Source of the DNA: Chloroherpetonaceae bacterium
GTDB lineage: Bacteria > Bacteroidota > Chlorobiia > Chlorobiales > Thermochlorobacteraceae
Reading direction: 5' to 3'
Assembly (NCBI GenBank): GCA_025056565.1
Contig: JANWWA010000005.1
Coordinates: forward strand, 69,219-133,218
Length of the DNA stretch: 64,000 bases
Within the stretch, counting starts at the first letter, position 1; each line of letters opens with the position of its first letter. Both the position numbers and the translations under genes were made by a program. Below the pieces are notes generated by a model. The model worked only from the letters and a program-made list of their open reading frames with translations. It was not told where the DNA came from and made no database searches. Below are positions 12,753-23,034 of this stretch, piece by piece.

Positions 12753-12838
12753 TGGCGGAGGAAGAGGGACTCGAACCCCCACAGGCTTGCGCCCGGCAGT
12801 TTTCAAGACTGCTGCCATACCAATTAGGCGATTCCTCC
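12753..12838 (-). tRNA. tRNA-Ser (anticodon TGA)
   Basis: On the minus strand the acceptor stem GGAGGAA pairs perfectly with TTCCTCC, followed by discriminator G and an encoded CCA (12753-12755). The anticodon stem GCAGT/ACTGC encloses loop CTTGAAA, giving anticodon TGA for UCA codons. A long variable arm with stem CGGGC/GCCTG marks it as a class II tRNA, as expected for serine. The T-loop TTCGAGT is canonical. Confidence 0.95.
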
Positions 12839-19417: not shown

Positions 19418-22021
19418 ATGAACGCCATTCAGCTTAGCATTTTAGGCTATGTCTTGCTTCAGCTGGCAATTGGATTCTTGCTCTCCCGACGCATTCACAC
19501 TGAGTCGGATTACCTATTGGCAGGCCGGCGGCTGGGCTTTGGCATTGCAACACTCACGCTATTTGCCACGTGGTTTGGCGCGGAGGCATGCTTAGGAGCG
19601 GCTGGGGCAATTTATCAAGAAGGGTTTTCAGGAAGCATCTCTGACCCGTTTGGCTATGCATTATGCTTACTCTTTATGGGACTGTTTTTCGCCGTGCCGC
19701 TCTGGACGCGCAATTTTGTAACGCTGGCAGATTTTTTTCGAGTGCGCTACTCGCCTGTTGTGGAGCGCCTAGCAGCCGTGCTGATAATTCCCTCATCGCT
19801 AGTTTGGGCATCGTCGCAAATGCGCGCCTTTGGGCAAGTGATTGCGTCGTTCTCACCACTAAGTCCTGAACAGGCTATCACGCTGTCTGCTGTGGTCGTG
19901 GTGATTTACACCATATCAGGTGGATTGTGGGCTGATGCTGTCACGGACGTCATTCAAGGTATAATGCTGGTGGTGGGGCTAATCTGCTTGCTGGTAGCCG
20001 TGCTGTCGCACACAACCCCTGAGCATTATACGGTGGCACTGACAGCAGAGCGACTAGACTTTTTCCGCAACGGTTCGCTATTACAAACACTGGAAGCGTG
20101 GCTCATCCCAATTTGTGGCTCAATGCTCTCGCAAGAGCTGGTGGCGCGTGCCTTAGCGGCAAGATCACCACAAGTTGCAAAACGCTCTGCGCTGGTGGCC
20201 AGTGGACTGTATTTCCTGATTGGCTCTATTCCTGCATTCATTGGTCTTGTGGGCATTGCGCTGTTCCCAAATCTCTCTGACCCAGAGTCGCTCTTGCCAG
20301 TTGCAGCAAAAGCCTATCTGCCGCCATGGCTCTATGTAATATTTATCGGTGCGCTGTTTTCGGCAATTCTCTCAACGGTCGATAGCGCACTGTTGGCAAC
20401 GAGTGCGCTCTTCTCGCACAATCTCATCATTCCGTTGTTCCCAAAAATGAGCGAGGAAAGCAAAGTGCGCACCAATCGCTTAGGCGTCGCACTCTTTGGT
20501 GCAATTGCCTACTCGGTGGCGCTATACGCAGGCAGTGTGCATGAATTGGTGATACTGGCTTCTGCGATAAGCGGCGCAGGCATTTTTACCGTTGTGGTAA
20601 TCGGGTTATTTACGCCCTTTGGCAAAGTGCGAAGCGCAGTGGCCACATTGATTGCTGGGTCGCTCGTCTGGGCGCTAGCGACGTTTGTCCTTCACCTTGA
20701 TTTTGCATACACGTTGGCACTTGTTGTATCTTTCCTAACCTATTTTCTATTTGCACTCTTTGAGACGCCAAGACTCTTTTTACCAAAAAACTTGCTTAGG
20801 CATATTCGCTCGCATCGAGAACGATTCATCATACCGACTATGGAACACGCCATTCGCAAGGAGTTCAACCAAAAGTTCCGACGAGAAGTCTATGAAGCCT
20901 TCATTGCAGACATCAGTCGATACAATAAAGGTGCAATGGATTTTCGCCTGTGTGAGACACCACTGTTTCTCTCGGAGGCAATGACGACTGACTTGATGAA
21001 AGCCGCTCACACTATTGTTGATGAATTGCTCGAGCCGTCGTTGATGAAGAAATTAGACCAAGCCGTGCCCAAGCATCTCTATGTGCCGAATGAAGATGCG
21101 CACCCTACATTTTTGCAACTGGACTTTGCGATTGCAGAAATGCCCGATGGCACACTGGCACCGCGTCTCATTGAGCTGCAAGGTTTCCCCACGCTCTATG
21201 CCTTTCAGTGGTTGCTGGATAAGAAGATTCGCCAGTTTTTTGACATTCCTGATTCGCTAACGCCGTATTTTAGCGGCTACTCATCGGAGTCGTATCTTCA
21301 GCGATTTAGAGAACTGCTGCTAGGCAATTCTGCACCTGAAAACGTCGTGCTCTTGGAGGTGCAGCCCGAGACGCAAAAGACACGCATTGACTTTTACTGC
21401 ACCGAAGAGCTAACAGGCATTAAGACCATTTGCCTCACCGAAGTCATCAAGCGCCAAAATAGGCTTTACTACAAGCAAAACGGCAAAGAAATCCCAATTG
21501 AGCGCATCTACAACCGTGTGGTGTTCGATGAACTCTACAAAAAGCAAATTGAGTTTGGCTTTCGCTTTCAGGACGAGCTGGATGTGGTCTGGCTCAATCA
21601 CCCGAATTGGTTTATGAAAATCTCAAAATATTGCCTACCGCTGTTCAAAAGCCAATATGTGCCGAAGGCATATTTGCTCTCCGACCTTGAGCGCTACCCA
21701 ACTGATTTAGAGAATTATGTCTTAAAACCGCTGTTTTCTTTCTCTGGCACAGGCGTTGAGATTGATGTAACACCCGAAATGCTCGACCGCATTGCCGACC
21801 GACAAAATTATCTGCTGCAAGAAAAGGTAAAATATGCGCCGCTGGTCGATACCCCCGAAGGAGGCACAAAAGCAGAAGTGCGAATGATGTTCTTCTGGGG
21901 CAATAGTGAAAAACCCGAACTGGTCAATAACCTTGTGCGAATGAGTCGAGGCAAAATGTTAGGAGCATCTTACAATAAAAATGCCGAGTGGATTGGCGCA
22001 AGTTTAGCATATCACCCGTAA
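19418..22021 (+). CDS. Sodium/solute symporter fused to ATP-grasp-like domain
   Basis: An 867-residue two-part protein. Residues 1 to about 447 are a sodium/solute symporter (SSS, SLC5-like) with about 13 helices: SDYLLAGRRLGFG at the start of the fold, ISGGLWADAVTDVIQG in the middle and SAILSTVDSALLATSA at the sodium-site helix. The remaining 400 residues are soluble and cytoplasmic by topology. They resemble an ATP-grasp enzyme: Lys770 in YVLKPLFSFSGTGVE would bind ATP with a glycine-rich loop, LLQEKV fits the hinge, and KAEVRMMFFW and LVRMSRGKMLGASYNKN fit the metal and phosphate sites. ELQGFPTLYAFQWLL is a distinctive motif of unknown meaning. Enzyme activity and transported substrate are unknown. 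The frame runs through an A6 tract at 20785-20790, so a sequencing slip should be excluded. An in-frame ATG at 20840 could be a relic start of the second domain. galE follows 17 bases later. Confidence 0.8.
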   Translation: MNAIQLSILGYVLLQLAIGFLLSRRIHTESDYLLAGRRLGFGIATLTLFATWFGAEACLGAAGAIYQEGFSGSISDPFGYALCLLFMGLFFAVPLWTRNFVTLADFFRVRYSPVVERLAAVLIIPSSLVWASSQMRAFGQVIASFSPLSPEQAITLSAVVVVIYTISGGLWADAVTDVIQGIMLVVGLICLLVAVLSHTTPEHYTVALTAERLDFFRNGSLLQTLEAWLIPICGSMLSQELVARALAARSPQVAKRSALVASGLYFLIGSIPAFIGLVGIALFPNLSDPESLLPVAAKAYLPPWLYVIFIGALFSAILSTVDSALLATSALFSHNLIIPLFPKMSEESKVRTNRLGVALFGAIAYSVALYAGSVHELVILASAISGAGIFTVVVIGLFTPFGKVRSAVATLIAGSLVWALATFVLHLDFAYTLALVVSFLTYFLFALFETPRLFLPKNLLRHIRSHRERFIIPTMEHAIRKEFNQKFRREVYEAFIADISRYNKGAMDFRLCETPLFLSEAMTTDLMKAAHTIVDELLEPSLMKKLDQAVPKHLYVPNEDAHPTFLQLDFAIAEMPDGTLAPRLIELQGFPTLYAFQWLLDKKIRQFFDIPDSLTPYFSGYSSESYLQRFRELLLGNSAPENVVLLEVQPETQKTRIDFYCTEELTGIKTICLTEVIKRQNRLYYKQNGKEIPIERIYNRVVFDELYKKQIEFGFRFQDELDVVWLNHPNWFMKISKYCLPLFKSQYVPKAYLLSDLERYPTDLENYVLKPLFSFSGTGVEIDVTPEMLDRIADRQNYLLQEKVKYAPLVDTPEGGTKAEVRMMFFWGNSEKPELVNNLVRMSRGKMLGASYNKNAEWIGASLAYHP

Positions 22022-22038: not shown

Positions 22039-23034
22039 ATGAAGGTTCTGGTAACTGGTGGGGCGGGCTACATTGGCTCGCACGGCGTGCGTCAGCTGCA
22101 GCGCGCAGGCTATCAAACGCTGGTTGTCGATAACCTCATCTATGGGCATCGCGACTTTCTGGAAAAAAGTGAGCACATGATTGGAGATTTGCAAGACCAA
22201 GCATTTGTTGGGAGCATTTTTGCAAAACACACTATTTCAGCGGTGATGCATTTTGCAGCATTTGCATATGTAGGTGAATCGGTGCAAGAGCCTGCAAAGT
22301 ATTACCGCAACAATTTGGTAGCCACACTGAATTTGCTCGATGCAATGCGTGCTTACGGCGTAAAGTATTTTATTTTCTCCTCTACCTGCGCAACCTACGG
22401 TGAGCCGAAGCAAGTCCCCATTCCAGAGACGCACCCGCAGCAGCCAATCAATCCATATGGGCGCTCCAAATTAATGATTGAGCAGATTTTGCGTGACTAC
22501 GACCATGCCTACGGCATTAAGTCCGTGTCGCTTCGCTATTTCAACGCGGCTGGAGCAGACCCTGAGGGCGACATTGGCGAAGACCATACGCCCGAGACAC
22601 ATTTGATTCCACTGCTGCTTGATGTCGCAATGGGACGACGTCCATTCATTACAATTTATGGTGACGATTATCCCACGCCAGATGGCACTTGCATACGCGA
22701 TTATATCCACGTAACTGACCTTGCTCAGGCCCATGTCTTGGGCTTGAAGTATCTGGAAGCAGGGGGCAGAAGCGACGCCTTTAACTTGGGCAATGGACAG
22801 GGCTTCTCCGTAAGGGAAGTGCACCAGATGGCGGAGAGAGTAACTGGCAAAGCCATCAAAGCCATCGTGGGCAAGCGGCGGCCGGGTGACCCAGCAAAAC
22901 TGGTGGGCAGCGCCGAAAAAGCCCAACGCACCTTAGGCTGGCAGCCCAGATTTGCAGACCTTGAAACCATCATTCGCACCGCTTGGCAGTGGCATCAGGT
23001 GCGCTTTGCAGAAAAGCCCGTGTTGCAGGCCTAA
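22039..23034 (+). CDS. galE: UDP-glucose 4-epimerase
   Basis: Cytoplasmic short-chain dehydrogenase-fold enzyme that interconverts UDP-glucose and UDP-galactose (some members also the N-acetyl forms), for cell-surface glycan synthesis. NAD-binding GGAGYIGSH lies at residues 8-16, FSSTCATYGEP carries the catalytic Thr/Ser, and YGRSK holds the Tyr-Lys pair. RYFNAAGADPEGDIGE and DGTCIRDYIHV are classic GalE blocks. Start is the ATG at 22039 (331 residues), immediately before the nucleotide-binding strand; an upstream in-frame start at 21988 would overlap the symporter gene. Likely in one transcript with that gene and the JAMM peptidase behind it. Confidence 0.92.
   Translation: MKVLVTGGAGYIGSHGVRQLQRAGYQTLVVDNLIYGHRDFLEKSEHMIGDLQDQAFVGSIFAKHTISAVMHFAAFAYVGESVQEPAKYYRNNLVATLNLLDAMRAYGVKYFIFSSTCATYGEPKQVPIPETHPQQPINPYGRSKLMIEQILRDYDHAYGIKSVSLRYFNAAGADPEGDIGEDHTPETHLIPLLLDVAMGRRPFITIYGDDYPTPDGTCIRDYIHVTDLAQAHVLGLKYLEAGGRSDAFNLGNGQGFSVREVHQMAERVTGKAIKAIVGKRRPGDPAKLVGSAEKAQRTLGWQPRFADLETIIRTAWQWHQVRFAEKPVLQA

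Follow-up and report, generated by a model that had tools for sequence, protein, structure and literature searches.

Can a single bacterial gene encode both a sodium/solute symporter (SSS) and an ATP-grasp ligase, and what would the two halves do together? The question is raised by a locus within the 64,000 nucleotides of DNA analysed here (the window), which come from a Chloroherpetonaceae bacterium with a genome of 2.9 Mb (G000). Candidatus Thermochlorobacter aerophilum (L014) is a congeneric relative, and Thermochlorobacter is a genus of hot-spring photosynthetic bacteria. A first-pass annotation of the window had described an uninterrupted frame of 867 codons in which 447 residues of SSS symporter lead into a soluble part, and this description was confirmed: the open reading frame at 19418-22021 of the plus strand is single and open, encodes 867 amino acids with a PF00474 domain, and its translation contains the quoted motifs YVLKPLFSFSGTGVE (with Lys770), LLQEKV and LVRMSRGKMLGASYNKN. 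No second copy of either half was found in G000, where the other SSS proteins are 25-29% identical to the symporter half of the fusion. Searches for promoters and terminators flanking the gene gave signals at or below shuffle level, and the sole Rfam match of the window was a tRNA-Ser (anticodon TGA) at 12753-12838 on the minus strand.

The symporter half (residues 1-447; 19418..20758, plus strand) was assigned by Pfam to the SSF family (PF00474) over residues 32-414, with an E-value of 2.4e-36 and 125.9 bits against a curated cut-off of 22.8, and the weak GSP_synth match described below was the only other one in the 867-residue product, where no STAC, PAS or histidine-kinase domain was found. 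Hydropathy gave 13 hydrophobic segments, and positive charges cluster on the loops predicted to be inside. Proteins of the SSS family have their N-terminus outside and a LeuT-type fold (PMC7918813), in such a way that, with 13 transmembrane segments, the C-terminus of this half is predicted to be cytoplasmic. AlphaFold was run on the two halves separately, because the alignments had put symporter residues in the ligase half. The symporter model reached a pLDDT of 86, and Foldseek superposed it on many SSS structures with TM-scores of 0.74-0.84, the best match being the human choline transporter CHT1, which at only 25% identity is too distant to name a substrate. Membership of the SSS family (TC 2.A.21, PF00474) is thus indicated by the profile score, the 13 segments, the LeuT-type fold and the predicted N-out orientation, features in common with the SSS/SLC5 symporters CHT1 (the nearest solved one), SiaT and vSGLT (PMC7918813), to which the fusion adds a cytoplasmic ligase of 394 residues.

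Between the halves lies a basic linker (residues 448-473; 20759..20836, plus strand), modelled with low confidence (pLDDT 48-61) and containing an A6 tract whose position, 20785-20790, was confirmed on the sequence. The ligase half (residues 474-867 plus the stop; 20837..22021, plus strand) begins at Met474, an in-frame ATG (20837..20839, plus strand) that could serve as an internal start and has no Shine-Dalgarno-like motif. Its AlphaFold model has a pLDDT of 93 and a pTM of 0.92, and all 32 Foldseek matches at E<=0.001 belong to the superfamily of glutathionylspermidine synthetase, eukaryotic glutathione synthetase and YgiC, with TM-scores of 0.5-0.6, values that we attribute to domain movement or divergence. 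The ATP-grasp assignment in the first-pass annotation was therefore borne out and narrowed: on the strength of the model, the ligase half is a circularly permuted ATP-grasp protein of the GspS/eukaryotic glutathione synthetase/YgiC type. At the sequence level the relationship is distant. Pfam has no model of its own for the ligase family, PF03738 (GSP_synth) scored below its curated cut-off (13.8 and 15.5 bits versus 29.3), and a profile search of the PDB reached YgiC at E=0.011, while the single ligase sequence retrieved only noise from the same database.

The ligase half has the fold and the ATP-site lysines in common with E. coli YgiC and Gss (GspS) and with eukaryotic glutathione synthetases, but it is only 11-18% identical to them in structural alignments. 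Two lysines, Lys737 (21626..21628, plus strand) and Lys770 (21725..21727, plus strand), together with the loop glycines Gly777 and Gly779, were invariant in 44 of 44 homologues. The lysines align with Lys498 and Lys533 of Gss, respectively, which we take to be its ATP-binding lysines and whose identity was checked in the E. coli sequence, and Lys770 also aligns with the lysine of the YgiC motif KPIFSREG. Also invariant are Asp569, Glu586 and Gln588 (21122..21181, plus strand), which were paired, by motif order and not by superposition, with Asp318, Glu330 and Asn332 of Gss, presumably magnesium ligands, whose identity was likewise checked in the E. coli protein. Unlike Gss, the ligase half has no amidase domain, is fused to a transporter, carries Gln at the position of Asn332, and has no match for the conserved Arg316, the equivalent position in the ligase family being Q, A, V, T or I.

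All three Thermochlorobacter genomes compared (the window genome, G001 and G002) have an open, in-phase junction. The linkers, as cut here, are 78 nt long in the window and 93 and 129 nt in the other two, and their sequences can hardly be aligned; nevertheless, they are stop-free in all three species and their lengths differ by multiples of three, whereas the probability of an open linker expected by chance from composition is 0.10-0.23 for each, before phase is considered. A galE-like epimerase gene (22039..23034, plus strand), which starts 17 nt past the stop of the fusion, also lies 3' of it in G001 and G002 and not in G003, a genome of a sister genus; it is probably in the same transcript as the fusion, and it is not thought to be part of its function. 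That the fusion might have arisen by misassembly at the A6 tract, a reading favoured by the location of this tract in the linker and by one alternative frame of the linker that is also free of stops, is extremely unlikely, because linkers of unrelated sequence are likewise open and in phase in two other species. As a sole cause such an artefact is ruled out by these junctions.

Outside the genus the halves are separate. In G003 the symporter gene stops 18 nt before the ligase ATG, and in G005, of the same family, both genes are present 59 kb apart. In further genera the ligase is a stand-alone protein whose first residue corresponds to Met474, and all three Thermochlorobacter species keep a methionine at this ancestral start. 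In a set of 395 Bacteroidota genomes, open frames with a ligase match never exceeded 469 amino acids except in Thermochlorobacter. A search for homologues of the fusion thus recovered the same architecture in G001 and G002, but in one genus only, in such a way that in the sampled genomes the fusion is restricted to Thermochlorobacter and its conservation is shallow. The adjacent separate genes of G003 and the stand-alone ligases elsewhere therefore support that the two genes were first adjacent and then fused in one genus. Among the papers searched, none joined SSS, fusion and ATP-grasp, and to our knowledge this symporter-ligase architecture, built from two known kinds of protein, is undescribed so far.

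The frame is not equally intact in the three species. The symporter half is frameshifted around codon 302 in G001 (L051:5002-7633) and around codon 357 in G002 (L052:11273-13947), with the ligase half intact in both, so that only the window genome has the whole fusion frame uninterrupted. It could be argued that decay of the symporter half is under way across the genus, with the fusion as a by-product, all the more as in G001 the symporter is the sole broken gene among 40 orthologues compared, with the break in a stretch that holds a T5 run. In G002, however, 6 of 28 orthologues are broken, which makes assembly error likely there. Moreover, the window copy is intact, and in every pair pN stays low over the full length of the symporter, against saturated pS (within the genus, 0.135-0.194 for the symporter half and 0.091-0.132 for the ligase half). 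This substitution pattern suggests that both halves have been retained by selection, and we regard decay with the fusion as its by-product as very unlikely. A genus-wide pseudogene is not supported by the pattern either; a very recent decay is possible, synonymous sites being saturated.

The ligase family was found in 113 of the 395 Bacteroidota genomes. The fused ligase belongs to the same family as the stand-alone ones, which are present in about 100 genomes and are 35-80% identical to it over the whole ligase half. As for whether the second half exists alone beside transporter genes, it does stand alone, and in G003 it is adjacent to the symporter, but its recurrent neighbours are peptide-ligase genes and not SSS genes. 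Partner genes precede it in a same-strand run at 29 of 46 stand-alone loci. Across these 46 loci the partners were GCS2/YbdK (24), a RimK-like ATP-grasp protein (21), a class I glutamine amidotransferase (GATase; 20), an esterase (13) and an M29 peptidase (5). At L086, L087, L092, L100, L101, L104, L105, L115 and L116 they form a module on one strand with short gaps, made of esterase, RimK-like protein, YbdK/GCS2, class I GATase (or M29 peptidase) and ligase. The RimK-like partner is encoded in 109 of the 113 ligase-bearing genomes versus 24 of the 282 others, as raw counts uncorrected for phylogeny. Compared with the Bacteroidota operons, the module is dispersed here: the window genome has GCS2/YbdK (G000:C9; L145:6833-7972) and RimK-like (G000:C6; L146:6992-8077) genes at separate sites and not in an operon. 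A GATase was detected neither in it nor in its Chlorobiales relatives, so that the module is incomplete in them. This gene context suggests that the module makes a small peptide-like metabolite and that the fused ligase is one of its steps. A reading as a defence system was dropped, as PADLOC gave no match for the ligase or its partner genes.

Whether the fusion has a function as such has to be weighed against a neutral loss of the stop between two co-transcribed genes, with function coming from a ligase started at Met474, from an unchanged symporter, or from both. The 18-nt spacing of the separate genes in G003, the methionine kept at the ancestral start and the frameshifts that damage the symporter of two relatives and spare their ligase are all consistent with it. 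In addition, a separate soluble ligase may be made from Met474, since the stand-alone ligases checked mostly lack Shine-Dalgarno motifs too. Drift alone, however, would not preserve three stop-free linkers differing by multiples of three, each with the chance of being open given above, and this neutral account is, in our opinion, possible but rather unlikely.

A functional link between both halves was the proposal of the first-pass annotation, according to which a substrate imported by the symporter would be handed over to the ligase and trapped there by chemical modification. The topology prediction (13 segments with a positive-inside pattern) supports its claim that the ligase is on the cytoplasmic side, the frame has been kept in three species despite diverged linkers, CHT1 carries an amine and some ligases of the superfamily use amines. 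There is also a partial precedent in LplT-Aas, where the transporter is coupled to a modifying enzyme in the cytoplasm and, in certain bacteria, forms a fusion with it (PMC11416262); LplT lies outside the SSS family, however, and Aas is no ATP-grasp enzyme, and coupling has been shown for that pair, while for the symporter-ligase fusion it is a proposal. Import with trapping found no positive support here. Stand-alone orthologues of the symporter, 49-56% identical, occur in 13 further sampled Bacteroidota genomes, none of which has the ligase, and no common biosynthetic theme was found among their neighbours. The ligase, in turn, usually stands by itself or next to other ligases, with biosynthetic neighbours, G005 keeps the two genes far apart, and the likeness to CHT1 is too remote to name a substrate. 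Each half occurs without the other and, therefore, neither generally depends on the other. We thus consider such vectorial uptake distinctly unlikely, and we give slightly less credence to its narrower form, a group translocation by amide ligation in which one polypeptide would take up an amine or amino acid through its Na+ symporter half and trap it by conjugation through its ligase half. A parallel in architecture is offered by the SLC5/STAC sensor kinases CbrA and CrbS/MxtR, which also join a 13-segment SSS domain to a large cytoplasmic module (PMC7918813). These proteins signal through a histidine kinase and carry STAC and PAS domains, whereas the fusion was found to have none of the three, and they can transport without the kinase that is attached to them (PMC7918813).

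A membrane-tethered ligase is likelier than vectorial trapping. The reading that we favour, with somewhat better than even confidence, is a genus-level fusion of formerly adjacent symporter and ligase genes yielding a tethered ligase of a peptide pathway, with transport probably independent. In its favour are the open frame, the fold and its lysines, the C-terminus predicted inside, the junction open in three species, the adjacency in G003, the sole copy of the ligase, its GCS2, RimK-like and GATase neighbours, its co-occurrence with the RimK-like partner, the GCS2 and RimK-like genes of the window genome, and the low pN at saturated pS in both halves; against it stand the broken symporter of G001 and G002, the lack of a detected GATase in the Chlorobiales relatives, the co-occurrence count being uncorrected for phylogeny, the unmatched Arg316 and the replacement of Asn332 by Gln. 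From the computed frame, folds, conserved lysines, predicted topology and phyletic pattern we infer catalysis, pathway membership, tethering and independent transport. The ligase half would activate a carboxylate as an acyl phosphate and join it to an amine, acting in a pathway for a small peptide-like metabolite with the YbdK/GCS2 and RimK-like ligases encoded elsewhere in the genome. As both genes are read as one, the ligase is probably tethered to the inner membrane, where the symporter half would anchor it at the cytoplasmic face while carrying a small organic solute of its own, probably without dependence on the ligase.

Beyond the fusion, the ligase half exposes a Bacteroidota module of YbdK/GCS2, RimK-like protein, GATase, glutathione-synthetase-fold ligase and esterase, for which we claim no novelty, as it may be described already in the work of Iyer et al. 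2009 on amidoligases. A polypeptide uniting transporter and ligase would, for its part, allow a coupling between uptake and ATP-dependent conjugation to be put to the test.
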